Shown here in pieces: positions 137-14,764 of a DNA stretch of 64,000 nucleotides (position 1 is its first letter; the number at the start of each line of letters is the position of its first letter). A program made the translations under genes and the position numbers. The DNA is taken from the NCBI GenBank assembly GCA_029261855.1, contig JAJDAN010000026.1:1-64000 (forward strand), given 5' to 3'. The notes under the pieces are model-generated. The model saw only the letters and a program-made list of their open reading frames with translations. It was not told the origin of the DNA and ran no database searches. The DNA is from Deltaproteobacteria bacterium (GTDB taxonomy: Bacteria; Myxococcota_A; UBA9160; UBA4427).

Positions 137-1192
137 CTAGAGCATCTCTTCGGCGAGCAGCTGGAACAGCTCGGGCTGCCCACCGCCGACCAGCATCGAT
201 TCGACGTGGCCCTTGCTGCCCGCCTGCTTCCACGCCTGCAGGCGATCCCGGATGCGGTCCTTCGGACCGACCAGCGCACAGGCATCCACCAGCTCATCGG
301 GAACCGCCGCCGCGGCCTCCGCCTTCTTGCCGCCGAGATAGAGGTCCTGGATCTTGGCCGCCGCTTCCTCGAACCCGAGGCGCTTCGCGTAGTCGTTGTA
401 GAAGTTCTTGTCGCGTGCGCCCATGCCGCCGATGTAGAGCGCCATGTTGCCCTTCACGGGCGCGCGGCACTGCTCGACGTCGTCGCCCATGATCGCGGTA
501 ATGAACGGGCAGACCGCGAAATCGTCCAAGGTCTTCTTCTTGCCGTCAGCGCCGGGCGCCGCCTTCGCAAAGCCCTTGTTGAGGCTCTGTTCGAAGATGT
601 CGAAGCGGTCCGGGTTCATCCACACCGGGAACACCCCGTCGGCGACTTCCCCTGCGCACTCCATACCGGCGGCCGAAATCGAAGCCGTATAGATCTTCAG
701 CGACGGGTCTCCGTGCAGGATGCTCTTGAGGGGCTTGCCGAGCCCGCTGGCTCCCTCGCCCCGGAACGGAATCTGGTAGTGGAAGCCCTCGTGGGTGAGC
801 TTCTCTTCGCGCGCGAGAATCTTCCTGATGATCGAGATGTACTCCTTCGTGCGCGTGAGCGGGCGACCGTAGGCGACGCCGTGCCAGCCCTCGATCACCT
901 GCGGACCGGACGGCCCGAGCCCGAGGATGAAGCGTCCGCCGGACATGGCGTCCAGGGTCATTGCGGTCATCGCAGTCGCCGCGGGCGTGCGCGCAGGCAT
1001 CTGCATGATGGCGGTGCCGACCTTGATCTTCGTCGTCTTCGCGAGAATCCAGGCCGCGGGAGAGACGGCGTCCGAGCCCCAGGCTTCGGCCGTCCAGACC
1101 GAGTCGTACCCGAGATTCTCCGCTTCAAGAATACGGTCCATCGGGACGCTCATCTGGGCGGGCGAGTAACCGGCGATGATTCCGAGCTTCAT
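137..1192 (-). CDS. LLM-class flavin/F420-dependent oxidoreductase
   Basis: A 351-residue TIM-barrel protein of the luciferase-like monooxygenase (LLM) superfamily. The N-terminus MKLGIIAGYS, the early block around LGYDSVWTAE and the FILGLGPSGPQV region followed by an EY.SI.R segment are typical of F420-dependent LLM enzymes. They oxidise or reduce small organic substrates in the cytoplasm with F420 or FMN; the substrate cannot be read here. The start at 1192 is chosen because GGAGA lies 8 bases upstream; an ATG 24 bases further upstream would add an unconserved peptide. It is monocistronic as far as visible and lies 66 bases from the histidine kinase stop. Family assignment is firm; cofactor and substrate are inference. 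Confidence 0.85.
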   Translation of the reverse strand: MKLGIIAGYSPAQMSVPMDRILEAENLGYDSVWTAEAWGSDAVSPAAWILAKTTKIKVGTAIMQMPARTPAATAMTAMTLDAMSGGRFILGLGPSGPQVIEGWHGVAYGRPLTRTKEYISIIRKILAREEKLTHEGFHYQIPFRGEGASGLGKPLKSILHGDPSLKIYTASISAAGMECAGEVADGVFPVWMNPDRFDIFEQSLNKGFAKAAPGADGKKKTLDDFAVCPFITAIMGDDVEQCRAPVKGNMALYIGGMGARDKNFYNDYAKRLGFEEAAAKIQDLYLGGKKAEAAAAVPDELVDACALVGPKDRIRDRLQAWKQAGSKGHVESMLVGGGQPELFQLLAEEML

Positions 1193-1258
1193 TGGGGGGT
1201 CTCCATCTGAGCACAAGATCTGGGCTTGGCTGGGCTGGGGCTTGGAAGAGGAGAGACT

Positions 1259-7034: not shown

Positions 7035-7580
7035 TCAGGAGCTTGGCGGCCCCACCCGGAGACAGCGCTCCCAAAGCCGCACGCCGGTCGGCAACCCGCC
7101 GGCACTCCCCTCCGGAAGCGCCCCCAGCAGCTCGCGCAGCGTGCGGCGAACCACCGGATGGACGAGATCGGGCGCGATGTCGCACAGCGGGACCAGGACG
7201 AAGCTCCGCTCCGCTATGCGCGGATGCGGGACGACGAGGTCCGGCTCGTGGATCACTTGTCCGCCCAGGAAGAGCAGGTCCAGATCGAGGGTTCGGGCGG
7301 TCCAACGCGGCGCCTCCCGTGTGCGGGTACGGCCGGCCCGCGCTTCGATCGCCTGCAGGACCGTCAGCAGCTCGCGTGCCGCGAGTCGGGTTTCCAGGCA
7401 GACCACCGCGTTCAGGTAGGCGGACTGCCTTCCGGGGCCGATCGGTTCGGTCTCGTAGATCGGCGAGCACTCCACCACCCCGATCCCGTCCGTATCCTCG
7501 AGGGCGGCGACCGCGGTCAGCAGATGGGCGTCGCGATCACCGAGGTTCGAGCCGAGCGCCACGTACGCCGTCGTGCTCAC
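7035..7580 (-). CDS. folK: 2-amino-4-hydroxy-6-hydroxymethyldihydropteridine pyrophosphokinase
   Basis: A 181-residue HPPK, which transfers pyrophosphate from ATP to the pterin alcohol in folate synthesis. Signatures: YVALGSNLGDRDAHL at the N-terminus, SPIYETEPIG, FLNAV-like YLNAVVCLET, and the ATP/Mg block RWTARTLDLDLLFLG followed by PHPRIAERSFVLVPL. The start is GTG at 7580, supported by GGGAGGA 5 bases upstream; the open frame further upstream is unconserved. No other folate gene lies in the window. It is divergent from the aminotransferase gene with only 50 bases between starts. Confidence 0.93.
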   Translation of the reverse strand: MSTTAYVALGSNLGDRDAHLLTAVAALEDTDGIGVVECSPIYETEPIGPGRQSAYLNAVVCLETRLAARELLTVLQAIEARAGRTRTREAPRWTARTLDLDLLFLGGQVIHEPDLVVPHPRIAERSFVLVPLCDIAPDLVHPVVRRTLRELLGALPEGSAGGLPTGVRLWERCLRVGPPSS

Positions 7581-7630: not shown

Positions 7631-8920
7631 ATGGCGCTTCCGCCGACCCTCGCACCTGCGCTCACGACCGAACTTCCGGGCCCCCGTTCTCGCGAGCTCG
7701 CGACACGCCTCGCTCGCGTCGAGAGTCGCAACGTCACCTGCCTCGAACCCGTACCCATCTTCTGGGAGCGGGCGTCCGGCGCGAACGTCTGGGACGTGGA
7801 CGGGAATCGCTTCGTCGACCTCACGGCGGCCTTTGGTGTGGCGACGACGGGACATGGACATCCCCAGGTCGTCGCGGCGATCCGGGACCAGGCCGGCGAC
7901 CTGATTCACGGGATGGGCGACGTGCATCCTCCCGCCGCAAAGGTCGAGCTGCTCGAGGCCCTCGCAGGCCTATATCCCGGCGGTGGTCCCGTACGTACCG
8001 TGCTCGGCTCGTCGGGATCGGACGCAGTCGAATCCGCACTCAAGACCGCCATGCTCGCCACCGGCCGAGCCGGCGTGGTCGCGTTCGAAGGCGGGTACCA
8101 CGGTCTCTCTCTCGGCGCCCTGGACACGACCTGGCGTCCCGACTTCCGCGAGCCGTTCGCCGCGCGTCTGCCGGGACGCACGGTCTTCGCCCGCTACGGT
8201 GATGTCGATGACGTCGCTCGTTGCGCGGCGGAGAGCGGTACGCCGATCGGCGCCGTGTTGGTCGAGCCCGTGCAGGGCCGCGGGGGCGAACGCGTTCCCC
8301 CCACCGGCTTTCTTCGGGCACTGCGGGATCTCTGCACGCGCGAAGGCTGGCTGCTCATCGCCGACGAGGTCTATACGGGCTTCGGACGCACGGGCCGCGT
8401 CTTCTGCTGCGACCACGAACAGGTGGTGCCGGACCTCCTCTGCGCCGGGAAGGGCCTGGCCTCGGGCATGCCTTTTTCCGCGTGCATGGGTCGAGCCGAG
8501 GTGATGGACCGTGCGTGGCCCGCGTCCCAGGGCGAGGCGCTGCATACCCAGACCTTCATCGGCCATCCGCTGGGCTGCGCCGCCGCCCTCGCGTCCATCG
8601 ACGTACTCGCGAAGGAAGACCTGGCGGCGCGGGCGGGTGAAACGGGCAAGCGCGCCATCGAGCGACTCCGGTCCGGCCTCTCGGACTGCGACGCGGTCGC
8701 GGAGGTTCGCGGGCTCGGTCTCATGATCGGCGTCGAGCTTCGGCGCCCCGAGCACGCACTCGCGATCACCCGGCAGTGCCTCGCTTCCGGGGTCATCCTG
8801 CTGCCGTCCGGCGAGGGAGGCCGCGTGTTGTCCGTGACCCCTCCGCTCAGCATCGAGCCCACTGCGCTGCTCACCGCCCTCGACGTCGTGATCGAACACA
8901 CCCGGGCCTGTTCGGGATGA
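7631..8920 (+). CDS. Class III PLP-dependent aminotransferase
   Basis: A 429-residue fold-type I aminotransferase of the class III (omega/GABA/ornithine) group. Seen: FWERASGANVWDVDGNRFVD, GHGHPQVV, SSGSDAVESALK, GYHG, the VEPVQGRGGERVPP loop, ADEVYTGFGRTG and the PLP lysine Lys274 in CAGKGLASGMP, then THTQTF-like LHTQTFIGHPLGCAAAL. Class III enzymes move an amino group between an amino acid and a terminal aldehyde or ketone. It heads a cassette with LuxE- and LuxC-like genes, whose product would be an aldehyde, so amination of that aldehyde is a reasonable inference. Its stop overlaps the next start by 4 bases (ATGA). Confidence 0.9.
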   Translation: MALPPTLAPALTTELPGPRSRELATRLARVESRNVTCLEPVPIFWERASGANVWDVDGNRFVDLTAAFGVATTGHGHPQVVAAIRDQAGDLIHGMGDVHPPAAKVELLEALAGLYPGGGPVRTVLGSSGSDAVESALKTAMLATGRAGVVAFEGGYHGLSLGALDTTWRPDFREPFAARLPGRTVFARYGDVDDVARCAAESGTPIGAVLVEPVQGRGGERVPPTGFLRALRDLCTREGWLLIADEVYTGFGRTGRVFCCDHEQVVPDLLCAGKGLASGMPFSACMGRAEVMDRAWPASQGEALHTQTFIGHPLGCAAALASIDVLAKEDLAARAGETGKRAIERLRSGLSDCDAVAEVRGLGLMIGVELRRPEHALAITRQCLASGVILLPSGEGGRVLSVTPPLSIEPTALLTALDVVIEHTRACSG

Positions 8921-10047
8921 ACCGACCCGAAGGCAACCGCACCGCACTCGACCAGAAGGTCCTCGCCTGGATGGGAGAGGGCAGCTGGGCCCGGGACGAC
9001 GAGCGCTTCGGTGCACTCGCTCTCGAGACCTTCGCGTACCAGCTCGAGCACTGCCTGCCGTATCGCCGTTTCTGCGAAGCGCGCGGCGCCAGCGTCGACA
9101 AGGTGCGTGACTGGCGAGCCATCCCGGCCGTTCCCACCGGCGCCTTCAAAGAGATCGCCCTGCGCAGCTTTGCGCCGGAATGCGAAGTCGCGACATTTCG
9201 AACCAGCGGAACCAGCGGCGTCGCGAACGCCCGTCGCGGCGAGCTGCACCTCGACACGCTTGCGCTCTACGAGGCGTCGCTGCTGCCGAGTCTGCGCCGC
9301 CATGTCCTCCCCGACCTCGGGGAGGGCGACCGCATTCGGATACTGGTGCTGACGCCAGCGGCGGAAGAGACCCCCGACTCGTCGCTGTCGCACATGTTCT
9401 CGTGCGCGGTCGCCAGCTTCGGGACGCCCGACAGCGGCTTCTTCGTGGAGCGCGACGAATTGCAGGTGGACGCAGCCTGGCGAGCGCTGTCCGAGGCAGG
9501 CGAGCCCGTCGCCCTGTGCGGGACCGCCTTTTCCTTCGTGCACCTGCTCGAGGCCCGACCGGACAGCATCTCGCTGCCCGCGGGCTCGCGCATCATGGAG
9601 ACCGGCGGCTTCAAGGGGCGTGCGCGGGAGATTCCTCGCGACGAGCTGTACGCCTGGCTGGAAGCGCGCCTCGCCGTGCCGCGCGAGCGGATCGTCAACC
9701 AGTACGGCATGACCGAGCTCGGCAGCCAGTTCTACGATTCGGTACTCGCCGAACCCGACGCTCCGAGGCGCAAGCTCGGACCGCCCTGGGTGCGCGTGCG
9801 CCTGATCGATCCGACGAGCGATCGCGATGTCGAGCCGGGGCAGCCCGGCGTGATCACCGTCCACGATCTCGCGAACACGGGCAGCGTCGCAGCCGTCACG
9901 ACCGCCGACCTTGGCGTGCGAATCGAGGGCGTGCGAATCGAGCCGGGCGAACACGGAAGCGAGTGGGGCTTCGAGGTGCTCGGCCGCGAGCCGGGCGCCG
10001 AAGCGCGCGGTTGCTCGATCGCCGCCGACCTGATGCTCGGCGGATGA
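8917..10047 (+). CDS. LuxE-like acyl-protein synthetase
   Basis: A 376-residue adenylate-forming enzyme of the LuxE family (acyl-protein synthetase). Motifs: the ATP-binding FRTSGTSGVANARRG, METGGFKGR, NQYGMTELGSQFYD and VITVHDLANTGS. A cysteine near the C-terminus (Cys366, in ARGCSIAAD) matches the position of the acylated cysteine in Vibrio LuxE. Expected reaction: carboxylic acid plus ATP to acyl-AMP, then acyl-enzyme that is handed to the LuxC-type reductase. Start and stop overlap both neighbours by ATGA, so translation is coupled. No luciferase (luxAB) or thioesterase (luxD) gene is present here; the acid substrate is unknown. Confidence 0.85.
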   Translation: MNRPEGNRTALDQKVLAWMGEGSWARDDERFGALALETFAYQLEHCLPYRRFCEARGASVDKVRDWRAIPAVPTGAFKEIALRSFAPECEVATFRTSGTSGVANARRGELHLDTLALYEASLLPSLRRHVLPDLGEGDRIRILVLTPAAEETPDSSLSHMFSCAVASFGTPDSGFFVERDELQVDAAWRALSEAGEPVALCGTAFSFVHLLEARPDSISLPAGSRIMETGGFKGRAREIPRDELYAWLEARLAVPRERIVNQYGMTELGSQFYDSVLAEPDAPRRKLGPPWVRVRLIDPTSDRDVEPGQPGVITVHDLANTGSVAAVTTADLGVRIEGVRIEPGEHGSEWGFEVLGREPGAEARGCSIAADLMLGG

Positions 10048-11303
10048 CGACGCGAGTGGACATCGAGGCGGCCTGGGCTCGACTCGCAGGCGCAGGCGAT
10101 GCGCTGGCAGGGCGCGACCGGAACCAGACCCTGGGATCCCTCGCCGCAGTCTTCGACGCGTGGAGCGATCCGCAATCGACCTGGCAGCGCCGACTCGTGG
10201 ACGAGCTGCCGGGCGCGACCGGCATGAACCGGGAGAATGTCCGACGAGGCCTCGCCGCAGGCCTGGCGCACTGGAACGGCGACGCCCTGCGCGAGGTCTT
10301 CGAGCGCGAGGTCGCCGGCCTGGGGCCGCGGGTCCGAGTGACCGGCTTCCCGACGACGAGCGTCCTGCTCGCCGGTTCGATTCCCATGCCGACCCTGCTG
10401 TCGCTGGCCCTGCCACTGGCCTTGCATTCACCCACGCTCGCGAAGTCCGCCTCGCGCGACCCGGTGACGGCCGGCCTGTTTCGGGAATCCGTGCTCGCGG
10501 TGGACGAGGCGCTCGGCGCCGCGCTCGAGGTCCTCTCCTTTTCCAGCTCCGACCCGGTCTGCAGCGACGCCTTCCTCGACGCCGACTGCGTCGTTGCAAC
10601 GGGATCGGACGAGACGATCGCAGCCGTGGCGCGGAGGACCCGCCCGGGCGCGCGCCTCGTTCGCTACGGGCACCGGCTTTCGATCGGCGTCGTCGCCGAC
10701 GCCGCGATGAGTGACGAGACCCTCGCCGACGCCGCGCAAGCACTCGCCCTGGACGTCAGCCTGTGGGACCAGCTCGGTTGTCTCTCGCCCGTGGCCGTCT
10801 TCTACCTGGGGAGCGGCAGCGAAGTCTTCGCCGAGCGACTTTCCGAAGCCCTCGCCGCCGAGGACGAGCGGGCGCCTCGGGGCGAACTGCCGACCGCCTC
10901 GGCGGCCGTCGCACGCGCCGAGCGCGACGGCGCGGCCATGCGTCACGCCGCGGGATCCGAGGTCCGCGTATTCGGTGATCCGAAGCTGCGTTTCACGGTG
11001 ATCCACGAGGCGGACGCCGCACTTCGTCCCGCACCCCTGCACCGCTTCGTCCGGGTGCACCCGGTTGCCGACCGGGACGCGTTGCTGGCGGCGATCCGTC
11101 CCCTGTCCCCTCATCTGGCGGGCGTCGCATTGGCGGCAGGGAGCGGCGAGCGGCCTTCGCTGGCGCACGATCTCGCCGGGCTCGGTGCATCTCGAATTTG
11201 CGAGCCCGGTACCCTGCAGGCGCCGCCTCTCGGCTGGCATCACGACAACCAACCGATCGTGCTGCCGCTGGCGCGAGTCGCCGATCTGGAAGCGCCCCGG
11301 TAA
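10044..11303 (+). CDS. LuxC-like acyl-CoA/acyl-protein reductase
   Basis: A 419-residue member of the LuxC acyl-CoA reductase family, related to aldehyde dehydrogenases. The catalytic cysteine is Cys246 in WDQLGCLSPVAVF, preceded by DCVVATGSDETI and RYGHRLSIGV. The C-terminal signature SRICEPGTLQAPPLGWHHD is typical of LuxC. Expected reaction: NADPH-dependent reduction of an acyl group, delivered by the adjacent LuxE-like enzyme, to an aldehyde. Coupling to the previous gene by ATGA overlap supports a reductase complex. Since luxD and luxAB are missing, the aldehyde probably serves biosynthesis rather than light. Substrate chain length cannot be read. Confidence 0.87.
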   Translation: MTTRVDIEAAWARLAGAGDALAGRDRNQTLGSLAAVFDAWSDPQSTWQRRLVDELPGATGMNRENVRRGLAAGLAHWNGDALREVFEREVAGLGPRVRVTGFPTTSVLLAGSIPMPTLLSLALPLALHSPTLAKSASRDPVTAGLFRESVLAVDEALGAALEVLSFSSSDPVCSDAFLDADCVVATGSDETIAAVARRTRPGARLVRYGHRLSIGVVADAAMSDETLADAAQALALDVSLWDQLGCLSPVAVFYLGSGSEVFAERLSEALAAEDERAPRGELPTASAAVARAERDGAAMRHAAGSEVRVFGDPKLRFTVIHEADAALRPAPLHRFVRVHPVADRDALLAAIRPLSPHLAGVALAAGSGERPSLAHDLAGLGASRICEPGTLQAPPLGWHHDNQPIVLPLARVADLEAPR

Positions 11304-11315
11304 GCTCGAAACACC

Positions 11316-11840
11316 TTGGACCTGATCCCCGCCGCGCTTCTCGATCGTCCCGTCGTCGGCGTGGGACTGTCCCCGGGGAGCCTCCGCGACCAGCTGGGTG
11401 ACGACACGACCCTGTTGGTCTTCCTGCGCCACTTCGGCTGCATCTTCTGCAAGGAAGCCGTGGCGGATCTTCGTGCGGCGGCCGAGGCGGCGCCCAGCTA
11501 TCCCGACATCCTGTTCTTCACCCAGGGCACGCCGCGCGAGTCCCGAGCCTTCCTCCGCGTCTGGCCCGGAGCACGCGCCGTTTCGGACCCCGAGATGGCC
11601 TTCTACGAGGCCTTCGGGATCCGTCGAGCGTCCTTCCTGGAGGCCCTCGGCCCGAAGGTGCTGCGGGCAAGATCGAGAGCCGCCGCCAAGGGCCACCGGA
11701 ACGGGACGCGCAACGGAGACATCTGGCGCATGCCGGGCTGCCTGCTCGTGCGGGGTCAGCAGGTGTTCTGGCGCTTCGAGCCCGTCCACGCCGCCGAGCA
11801 CCCGGACTTCACGACGATCCCGGCGCTCTGCAGGGCCTGA
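11316..11840 (+). CDS. Peroxiredoxin-like (AhpC/TSA, SelL-related) redox protein
   Basis: A 174-residue thioredoxin-fold protein. The active-site region reads FLRHFGCIFCKEAVADL, a CXXC (C-I-F-C) at the end of the first strand, as in PRXL2/SelL-like AhpC-TSA proteins. The later MPGCLLVRGQQVFWRFEP block is also typical. It begins with TTG 12 bases after the LuxC-like stop and has no strong ribosome-binding site. A role in protecting or reducing a thiol in the same pathway, or in general peroxide defence, is inference. It ends in a small hairpin shared with the convergent sulfatase. Confidence 0.75.
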   Translation: MDLIPAALLDRPVVGVGLSPGSLRDQLGDDTTLLVFLRHFGCIFCKEAVADLRAAAEAAPSYPDILFFTQGTPRESRAFLRVWPGARAVSDPEMAFYEAFGIRRASFLEALGPKVLRARSRAAAKGHRNGTRNGDIWRMPGCLLVRGQQVFWRFEPVHAAEHPDFTTIPALCRA

Positions 11841-11859
11841 GGCCCGACGCCCGCCTCAG
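11837..11859. terminator. Small hairpin between convergent genes
   Basis: CTGAGGC (11837-11843) pairs with GCCTCAG (11853-11859) across a 9-base loop and spans both stop codons. There is no T run, so a bidirectional terminator role is only suggested by position. Confidence 0.35.
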
Positions 11860-13415
11860 TCGATCCCCATGCGTTGGAAGTGCTCGTCGGGGGCCTCCAC
11901 CTCTTCGAGCGCACTGCGCAGCAGGTCGACGGCGTCCTTCTCGGCCGCGGACCCGACGAGGTTCCTTCGCTCGCCGGGATCGGCTTCGAGATCGAACAGG
12001 AAGTGCTCGCTGCGCGCGCCCATCGCCCAGTACGGCAGTAGATCCCCCTGCGCGAACGGCTGCCGAATCACCGGCACGTCGCTGCCGGGCATGGTGTCGA
12101 GCCAGGCGCGCTGGTCGGGACGCGGGATGCGATAGCCCGGAAACGCGTGGATCGGCATCGTCGACCAGCGGTTCGACCACATGGAAAGGGGGGCGTTGTC
12201 TCCTTCGTGCGCGCGTGCGTACTTGGTCTTGCCGTCGATCACGTGTACCCAGCGGCCCCACACCCCCGCCAACGCCCACTCGCGAATCGAGTCCTGGCTG
12301 CCGTCGAGCAGCGGGATCAGGCTCTTGCCGTGGGTGCGGTGCTCGGGTTCGAGATCGAACAGGTCCAGCAGGGTCGCGTTGATGTCGACGTTCGTGGTGA
12401 GCGCATCGACCTGACCGGCGCCCCGCCCCGGCCAGGACACGAAGAGTGGCGTGTGTCCGAGGGGCTCGTAATGCGGAACCCCGGGCTTCCCCCAGATGTC
12501 CTGACCGTCCGGCGTCTGGTCTCCGAGATAGTGGCCATGGTCGGTGCAGACGATGATCGCGGTGTCCTCCGCGAGACCCAGGTCGTCGATGGTGTCGAGC
12601 AGGCGTCCGAACCACGCATCGATCAGGGTGAGCTTCGAGCCGTAGTTCGCGCGGACCTGACGCCCGTCTCTTTCGGGCATCTCCCCGCGTGCGATGGGAC
12701 CGACCGCGTAAGGGGGCCAGATCAGACGCGGGCCTTCCCAGCTGTCGTCGTACATCGACGCGTAGGGCTCGGGCGTATCGAAGGGCTCGTGAGGGTCGAA
12801 TTCGTCGATGAAGAGCAGGAAGCGATCGTGCTGGCCGGCGTTCGTCCGCAGCCAGTCGGCCGCGGTGGCCATCGTCTTCGGACCGGGGAAGTCGGCCTCG
12901 CTGCGAAACCAGCTCCGGGAAAGATCGTAGGGACGCTCGATCCCCGCCGGGCGCGCCTGCGGGATCCCGGGCGCACCGACTGCGCTGGGGTCCGGAACCG
13001 TCTTCCAGGGGTCTCCTTCGTGCCCGCGCACGTACTCCCAGGCGTGGAACTCGGTGTGGTAGTTCTCGCCGCCGCTCTCGAACAGGTGCGGATGGTCGGA
13101 GACCAGCATCGTCGTGATGCCCTTCTGACGAGCGTGGAAGGTGATCGCGTCCTCCCAGATCTCGACCGAGCCCCAGGGCTTCCACAGGAAGTCGAGCGCG
13201 CCGCACAGGATGTCGTGACGAGCCGGCATACACGGGAGCGAGCCCACGAAGTGCCCGTCGAAGCGCACCGAGCGGGCGGCGAAACGATCCAGGTTCGGCG
13301 TGTCGAACTCGTTCGCGGTGGCGCACCCGTAGCTCCCCAACAGGTGCCGATTCAGGCTGTCGAGCAGCACGACGATGGCGTTCCTCGGCTTCGGGCTCGT
13401 TTCCGCTTCGCTCAT
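11856..13415 (-). CDS. Sulfatase (formylglycine-dependent)
   Basis: A 519-residue sulfatase of the alkaline phosphatase superfamily. The modification motif is Cys62-M-P-A-Arg66 (LPCMPARHDIL), the CxPxR signature converted to formylglycine. Other landmarks: LLDSLNRHLLGSYG (metal Asp near the N-terminus), FDEFDPHEPFDTP-like DEFDPHEPFDTPEPY, and the metal site CTDHGHYLGDQ. No signal peptide is evident, so it is probably cytoplasmic. Substrate unknown; the paired Gfo/Idh dehydrogenase suggests a sugar or inositol ester. Its start overlaps the upstream dehydrogenase stop by ATGA. A formylglycine-generating enzyme is not in the window. Confidence 0.9.
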   Translation of the reverse strand: MSEAETSPKPRNAIVVLLDSLNRHLLGSYGCATANEFDTPNLDRFAARSVRFDGHFVGSLPCMPARHDILCGALDFLWKPWGSVEIWEDAITFHARQKGITTMLVSDHPHLFESGGENYHTEFHAWEYVRGHEGDPWKTVPDPSAVGAPGIPQARPAGIERPYDLSRSWFRSEADFPGPKTMATAADWLRTNAGQHDRFLLFIDEFDPHEPFDTPEPYASMYDDSWEGPRLIWPPYAVGPIARGEMPERDGRQVRANYGSKLTLIDAWFGRLLDTIDDLGLAEDTAIIVCTDHGHYLGDQTPDGQDIWGKPGVPHYEPLGHTPLFVSWPGRGAGQVDALTTNVDINATLLDLFDLEPEHRTHGKSLIPLLDGSQDSIREWALAGVWGRWVHVIDGKTKYARAHEGDNAPLSMWSNRWSTMPIHAFPGYRIPRPDQRAWLDTMPGSDVPVIRQPFAQGDLLPYWAMGARSEHFLFDLEADPGERRNLVGSAAEKDAVDLLRSALEEVEAPDEHFQRMGID

Positions 13416-14764
13416 CCGTTCTCCTGTTCGCCCCAGACGGCGACGGCCGCTTCGCGCGCACAGCGATCCGCCGCGAACGCCATTCGATGACTCCAGAGTG
13501 CTTCGCGCGCGGTCGTGATGGCATCGGACTCGCCGCGAAGCGCCGCCAGGAAGGCGCGGAACAGCCTCGGGTCCGAGCCGCCGTGAGCGCCGGTCTCGAC
13601 ATCGAGGGCGACTCGACGCCGGCGCCCGCTCTTGTGATCACTGACCATCGCGGACTGCTCGAGGGTATAGAAGCCGGCGACCAGGCTGCCGCGGGTGCCG
13701 TCGATGCGCGTCTCCCGGCCCTCGCGGTGAGACGTCGAGTGCATCGTGAAGCTCGCGTTCACACCGTTCGCGAAGAGCACATCGACGTTCTGGCTCGACG
13801 GCTGGTCGTTGTCACCCACCCGATAGACGCAACGGCCGTAGCGCGTCTCGCGCAGTGCCCGTTCGACACCCTCGGCGCTGGTGTCGGCGGTGATGGCCGA
13901 GACGGGCCAACCCGTCCAACCGTTGGCTCGCGGAACGTCTTCGGCCTGAGGTTCCGCTTCCGCGTCGGGACCCGACCGGGCCCGCAGATCGAGCAGGATC
14001 GGACTGAGATCGCGGTACATCGCGACCGCATCGTACGGACAGCTCTCCGCATGGGCGCAGCCCTCGATGCAGAAGGCCGGTGCTCCTTCGGGCGCGTTCG
14101 CATCCGTGAGCTCGGTGGGCCTCTCGAGAGAAGTCAGGCGCACCGGCGCAGCGTCTGCCAGCCAGCACAGCAGGTCGAGGTCGTGGCACGACTTCGCGAG
14201 GATCATGGGCGAAGACTCCGTGCGATTTCGCCAATGTCCCCGTGCATAGGAGTGGGCGTAGTGCCAATAGGACACGTTCTCCGAATGCTGGATGGTGACG
14301 ATCCGGCCGAGCTCGCCGGATTCGATCACCTGCTTCACGGCCGCGTAGAGCGGTGCGTACCGCAGTACGTGACAGATCTGCAGCAGGCGCCCGGCCTTCT
14401 CGCTCGCCCGCACGAGGCGCTCGCAGTCCGGCTCGTTCGTCGCCATGGGCTTCTCGAGGAGCACGTGGTAGCCGCGCTCGAGAGCCTGCAGCGCTGGATC
14501 GACGTGGAGAGCGTCTGGCGTGGCGATCAGCGCGAAGTCGGCAAACGCGGGCTCCGCGAAGAGATCCCGGTAGTCCGCGAAGCACCGCTCGGCCGGGATC
14601 GCGAAGCGTTCGGCCAGCGCGCGCCTTCTCGCCGCATCGGGCTCGGCGACTCCGACGATCCGCGCGAGGTCCGGCTCGGCCTCGAGGAGCGACACGTAGG
14701 CCTTCGCGCCGCGCTCCCCGGCCCCGATCACGACGCCCGCTGTGACCCCCGACGGATCCCGCAT
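13412..14764 (-). CDS. Gfo/Idh/MocA-family oxidoreductase
   Basis: A 450-residue NAD(P)-dependent dehydrogenase. The Rossmann start is VVIGAGERGAKAY; the EKP motif is LLEKPMATN; the following HVLRYAPLY and CHDLDLLCWL (catalytic His/Asp) are typical. A cysteine-rich insertion (FCIEGCAHAESCPYDAV, near residue 235) is seen in a subset of this family and may bind metal. It probably oxidises or epimerises a sugar or cyclitol freed by the sulfatase downstream; this is inference from the operon. TAGCAT lies exactly 6 bases before the ATG, so it is likely leaderless. Confidence 0.88.
   Translation of the reverse strand: MRDPSGVTAGVVIGAGERGAKAYVSLLEAEPDLARIVGVAEPDAARRRALAERFAIPAERCFADYRDLFAEPAFADFALIATPDALHVDPALQALERGYHVLLEKPMATNEPDCERLVRASEKAGRLLQICHVLRYAPLYAAVKQVIESGELGRIVTIQHSENVSYWHYAHSYARGHWRNRTESSPMILAKSCHDLDLLCWLADAAPVRLTSLERPTELTDANAPEGAPAFCIEGCAHAESCPYDAVAMYRDLSPILLDLRARSGPDAEAEPQAEDVPRANGWTGWPVSAITADTSAEGVERALRETRYGRCVYRVGDNDQPSSQNVDVLFANGVNASFTMHSTSHREGRETRIDGTRGSLVAGFYTLEQSAMVSDHKSGRRRRVALDVETGAHGGSDPRLFRAFLAALRGESDAITTAREALWSHRMAFAADRCAREAAVAVWGEQENG

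Follow-up and report, generated by a model that had tools for sequence, protein, structure and literature searches.

An aminotransferase-LuxE-LuxC module of Myxococcota as a candidate replacement of QueC and QueF in queuosine biosynthesis

In the genome of a Myxococcota bacterium (6.96 Mb), genes for relatives of the acid-reducing proteins LuxE and LuxC follow directly behind an aminotransferase gene. Which acid would these enzymes reduce, and which amine would be the product? A preliminary description of the window (the whole stretch of 64,000 nucleotides that was analysed) proposed a self-contained route leading from an acid, via an aldehyde, to a primary amine or amino lipid. We analyzed the operon, its relatives and the queuosine genes of the same genomes.

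The operon and its catalytic residues

The ORF coordinates confirmed the four-gene operon described at positions 7631-11840 (Table 1). ATGA overlaps join the stop codon of the aminotransferase (AT) gene to the start codon of the LuxE gene and the LuxE stop to the LuxC start, and 12 bases separate the LuxC stop from the fourth gene. The family assignments of the preliminary description (AT, LuxE, LuxC and a CXXC peroxiredoxin-like protein) agreed with Pfam and NCBIfam. By NCBIfam, the fourth protein is a SelL-related redox protein (134 bits; cut-off 120), and the AT matches include the LysJ, ArgD and PigE models.

Table 1. Genes of the cassette and its divergent neighbour (positions in the window)
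Feature	Position	Strand	Properties
Class III PLP aminotransferase (AT)	7631-8920	+	ATG start; 429 aa; Pfam Aminotran_3 (PF00202), 318.8 bits
LuxE-like ATP-dependent acyl-protein synthetase	8917-10047	+	ATG start; 376 aa; Pfam LuxE, 62.7 bits
LuxC-like thioester reductase	10044-11303	+	ATG start; 419 aa; Pfam LuxC, 167.9 bits
SelL-related redox protein	11316-11840	+	TTG start; 174 aa; CXXC motif CIFC; Pfam AhpC-TSA_2, 35.3 bits
folK (HPPK), divergent neighbour of the cassette	7035-7580	-	context only

Neither luxD nor luxAB was found in the operon by ORF reading and Pfam, as had been stated previously. With the NCBIfam long-chain-fatty-acid equivalog models, LuxE scored 58 bits (cut-off 550) and LuxC 68 bits (cut-off 750). 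Because luxD and luxAB are missing and these scores lie far under the cut-offs, we rejected a lux operon for luminescence or fatty aldehyde. A luciferase-like PF00296 protein encoded at positions 140-1216 (minus strand) of the window is not LuxA; it is an F420-type LLM-class oxidoreductase (TIGR03559, 384.8 bits; cut-off 335), and related neighbours occur in several relatives.

The preliminary description had pointed to a C-terminal cysteine in LuxE and an active-site cysteine in LuxC. These are C366 and C246, which align with the cysteines of the solved LuxE/LuxC structure 7xc6 and are kept in the relatives. The position of the acyl-carrier cysteine C366 is occupied by Cys in 93/93 alignment rows with a letter there, and C246 is invariant in the alignment of relatives. 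The PLP-binding lysine of the AT, K274, was found in 77/77 aligned sequences. The structure predicted for the AT had low confidence (mean pLDDT 65.9) and was left out of the argument.

The AT carries a signature (YHG-L159, QG-R217 and a residue other than Arg at 401) in place of the carboxylate-binding residues of GABA-AT, which are Arg141, Glu211 and Arg398 in the E. coli enzyme. At these three positions, the AT of the window has Leu, Arg and Ser, which are not the residues of a GABA or omega-amino-acid AT. Since the three positions are replaced, the enzyme is unlikely to act on a GABA-like amino acid. All of the cassette-type ATs (76/76) possess Leu or Met for Arg141, Arg for Glu211 and no Arg at 398, and they differ in this from five of six paralogues. 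Thus, the AT subfamily can be recognised by its residues. A Methylomirabilis locus (L195) was not counted as a cassette because its adjacent AT is without the signature (YHGD, QGE and Arg).

Conservation of the module and its neighbourhood

The preliminary description suggested a search for the same gene order in related genomes. AT-LuxE-LuxC was kept in identical order and strand in 29/29 loci of the order, counting only loci whose contig reaches far enough, and LuxE was found in 59/61 genomes of the order, usually as a single copy. Among 237 evenly drawn Myxococcota genomes, 192 gave a LuxE match, and the AT lies directly upstream of LuxE in most of the families inspected. The module was also detected in Verrucomicrobiota and UBP4. 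This conservation is far above chance expectation, and AT-LuxE-LuxC belongs to the core of the Myxococcota gene set rather than to an accessory pathway. Only in the genus of the window does the SelL gene adjoin LuxC. It is a genus-level add-on, probably outside the pathway, and the peroxiredoxin-like gene, previously counted as a member of the cassette, does not belong to the conserved module.

Across the order, folK lies divergently beside the cassette, and the other neighbours are a thiamine-binding protein, PAPS reductase and SUF genes. Outside the order, folK is not beside the cassette, and the neighbours elsewhere are dnaN-recF-tRNA methyltransferase, gyrA, or rpoA and ribosomal genes. 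No lipid genes were found beside the cassette in the neighbourhoods examined, except for one LPG-synthase-TM protein (L178). An amino-lipid operon was rejected because the neighbours are mostly housekeeping genes (folK, SUF, dnaN-recF, gyrA and rpoA). A phage or DNA-modification origin was also rejected, since no LuxE relatives were found among viral contigs and phages. Downstream of the operon, at positions 11856-14764 (minus strand), the window encodes a sulfatase and a Gfo/Idh/MocA oxidoreductase; in many relatives from other genera, an Rrf2-SUF operon occupies this place.

Queuosine genes and the exclusion of QueC and QueF

The product of QueE is 7-carboxy-7-deazaguanine (CDG). In the standard route, CDG is converted to preQ0 via QueC and to preQ1 via QueF, followed by Tgt and QueA (PMC5372724, PMC11130926). 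A survey of 41 genomes from the order found Tgt in all (41/41), with two copies in most, a QueE-like radical SAM match in 40/41 and QueA in 38/41. The QueE of the order is divergent and scores under the equivalog cut-offs. Its identity was checked for the copy in the host genome and for relatives; the PDB matches of the host copy are only QueE, and QueE models lead the NCBIfam matches. Both tgt copies of the host genome (G000:C32:204568-205632 and G000:C62:6772-7851) score above the TIGR00430 cut-off, and one of them adjoins queA.

No true QueF was detected by family search in these 41 genomes, which gave only partial matches of 22-30 bits. Four QueF-like ORFs that were read in the order are presumably FolE (GTP cyclohydrolase I), named from its hallmark motif. 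The QueC matches in the order scored about 20-29 bits, except for one of 71 bits in the host genome. This protein was ruled out as a queuosine QueC because it sits in a type IV CBASS operon. The operon (G000 contig C42, L231:2523-6345) consists of OGG, a 2TM effector, an oligonucleotide cyclase, a TGT-like protein and the QueC-like protein. Rfam searches of the window and of ten relatives gave no match, either to a preQ1 riboswitch or to any other family. Since the order has QueE, Tgt and QueA but is without QueC and QueF, the step from CDG to preQ1 needs to be filled, and the cassette is a candidate for it.

Other uses of the cassette near this pathway were considered. The enzymes might act elsewhere in deazaguanine metabolism, for example on CDG that the second Tgt has already inserted into tRNA, or toward a deazaguanine amine other than preQ1. 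The pair of tgt genes that almost all genomes of the order carry, one of them beside queA, would suit this, and its phylogenetic profile equals that of the conversion of CDG to preQ1. However, QueA, which acts on preQ1 in tRNA, is kept; LuxE, LuxC and class III ATs usually take small molecules or carrier-bound acyl groups; and the simplest gap is that from CDG to preQ1. We regard such a role as quite improbable. A pterin route, from 6-carboxypterin to 6-aminomethylpterin and tied to folate metabolism, could be read from the conserved divergent folK of the order and from the derivation of CDG from a carboxypterin. As folK is away from the cassette outside the order, and as this route leaves both the QueC/QueF exclusion and the QueE linkage described below unaccounted for, its probability is close to negligible.

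Strong QueF (E up to 2e-20) was found in 24 of the 237 Myxococcota genomes, and LuxE in 0/24 of them versus 19.4 expected (Fisher p = 8e-21; this value is inflated, because kinship is uncorrected and there were few independent switches). Strong QueC and strong QueF occurred together in 23/237 genomes, with LuxE in 0/23. Strong QueC was found in 29/237 genomes, three of which are LuxE-positive (G120, G173 and G192). Together with the host genome (G000), four LuxE-positive genomes thus have a QueC-like match, and three are accounted for: the host protein by its CBASS operon, that of G120 by adjoining DpdB, a DNA deazaguanine-modification gene, and G173 by its LuxE, which groups with an SDR-linked clade in the LuxE tree. 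In G192, LuxE and strong QueC occur together, which counts against full exclusion. Two further results count against a bypass of QueC and QueF by the cassette. Of 45 LuxE-negative genomes, 21 are also without strong QueF. Moreover, intermediate QueF-family (T-fold) matches of about 60 bits were detected in seven genomes of families f22 and f24 (G084, G104, G135, G143, G186, G198 and G243), five of which are LuxE-positive. As a separate observation, the DpdB gene of the LuxE-positive genome G120 lies beside two queC and one queE in a DNA 7-deazaguanine modification cluster (L288, G120:C41).

In two Verrucomicrobiota genomes (L181 and L186), queE, a small ORF, AT, LuxE and LuxC follow in this order on one strand, and the queE product of L181 scores above the cut-off of TIGR04349 (303.6 bits). 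This tight link to a queuosine gene is limited to the two related genomes; the cassettes of Myxococcota lie beside other genes. In Myxococcota family f18 and in Gemmatimonadota, the AT is away from LuxE. An orthologous AT was found elsewhere in each of these genomes (417-506 bits), and the next-best class III AT scored about 263 bits or less. In the QueF-positive genomes G163, G202, G245 and G130, the best AT match was only 209-228 bits. Outside Myxococcota, QueF above the cut-off was found in 0/12 AT-linked, Gemmatimonadota or related LuxE genomes.

These results also bear on a cassette that makes a fatty or aryl amine (an amino lipid or small metabolite) apart from tRNA, the QueC/QueF pattern being a phylogenetic coincidence. 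The LuxE and LuxC of luminous bacteria take fatty acids, class III ATs accept many aldehydes, and few independent switches lie behind the pattern in the 237 genomes. On the other side stand the zero overlap with strong QueF, the QueE linkage in another phylum, the AT that tracks LuxE even where unlinked, the cassette-bearing Gemmatimonadota and Verrucomicrobiota genomes without QueF, and a neighbourhood free of lipid or natural-product genes. We consider this explanation improbable. The self-contained amino-lipid route of the preliminary description found no support, since no lipid genes lie alongside, the scores are far under the fatty-acid equivalog cut-offs and the phylogenetic profile points to CDG and preQ1.

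A second kind of LuxE-LuxC locus, with an SDR gene and without an AT, was found in Azospirillum, Limnohabitans, Geobacillus, Pantoea and Actinomycetota. Its LuxE is about 40-45% identical to that of the cassette, and LuxC is likewise adjacent. In contrast to the cassette, it has an SDR as partner, its LuxE forms a clade apart from the AT-linked proteins, and several of its genomes retain QueF. QueF above the cut-off was found in 4/7 SDR-linked LuxE genomes; the SDR type can thus coexist with QueF. The Gemmatimonadota LuxE is placed next to the SDR-linked proteins in the tree. The SDR-type loci (L034, L183-L185, L193, L196, L197, L200 and L202) represent an uncharacterised acid-reduction system, with the arrangement LuxE-LuxC-ABC (NMT1/THI5-like)-SDR in Azospirillum, Comamonadaceae and Geobacillus, and LuxE-LuxC-SDR in Pantoea and Actinomycetota. 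A role of the cassette in thiamine or pyrimidine salvage was raised by the NMT1/THI5-like ABC transporter of the Azospirillum and Geobacillus clusters and by the Thiamine_BP neighbour. It was dropped because the transporter-bearing clusters form a separate LuxE clade without an AT.

A proposed conversion of CDG to preQ1

Conversion of a carboxylate to an aminomethyl group needs activation, reduction to the aldehyde and transamination, which fits LuxE, LuxC and AT. In the proposed pathway, LuxE would use ATP to convert CDG to an acyl-adenylate and then to a thioester on Cys366; QueC also starts by ATP activation of the CDG carboxylate, so that the two routes would diverge only in the chemistry that follows. 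Cys246 of LuxC would receive the acyl group, and reduction with NAD(P)H would yield 7-formyl-7-deazaguanine. The AT, with PLP on Lys274 and an amino donor, would convert this aldehyde to 7-aminomethyl-7-deazaguanine (preQ1). Tgt would then place preQ1 in tRNA, where QueA would elaborate it, so that the bypass would rely on QueE upstream and on Tgt and QueA downstream. From the sequences, we infer which substrate, intermediate and product are involved and in which order the steps run.

The bypass is proposed on the basis of gene content and order, the catalytic residues, the QueC/QueF exclusion, the retention of QueE, Tgt and QueA, and the queE-linked operon of Verrucomicrobiota. From these, AT-LuxE-LuxC is probably a non-orthologous replacement of QueC and QueF in queuosine biosynthesis. 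In most Myxococcota, as well as in Gemmatimonadota and some Verrucomicrobiota, queuosine is likely to be made without preQ0, via 7-formyl-7-deazaguanine formed by LuxE/LuxC-type enzymes and its transamination to preQ1. Of the earlier route from acid via aldehyde to primary amine, the chemistry is well supported at the sequence level by conserved catalytic residues and by gene order across phyla; its lipid substrate is probably wrong.

Carboxyl activation, reduction to the aldehyde and transamination by a class III AT also occur in LysZ-LysY-LysJ, ArgB-ArgC-ArgD and PigE. Unlike the cassette, these systems use other enzymes for activation and reduction (PigE is a fused reductase-AT) and act on aliphatic substrates. 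With the fatty-acid reductase LuxC-LuxE (7xc6), the cassette shares two protein families, the conserved catalytic cysteines and the adjacency of the genes. It differs in the absence of LuxD and luciferase, in the AT partner, in scores far under the long-chain equivalog cut-offs and in being a core gene set of non-luminous phyla. QueC and QueF (PMC5372724, PMC11130926) resemble the proposed route in the substrate CDG, the product preQ1, ATP activation of the carboxylate and reduction by NAD(P)H. However, the protein families are all different, the intermediates are an amide and a nitrile versus the proposed aldehyde, and the nitrogen would come from an amino donor by transamination. In the open-licence PMC literature, we found no published account of this bypass and no paper with both 'queuosine' and 'LuxE'.

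If the proposal is true, there would be a second, preQ0-free route to preQ1, in which proteins related to bioluminescence enzymes carry out aldehyde chemistry. Automated pathway annotation with QueC and QueF as requirements would then mis-score most of the phylum as queuosine salvagers or non-makers. It would also give a function to the LuxE and LuxC homologues of non-luminous bacteria and to the signature-bearing AT subfamily.
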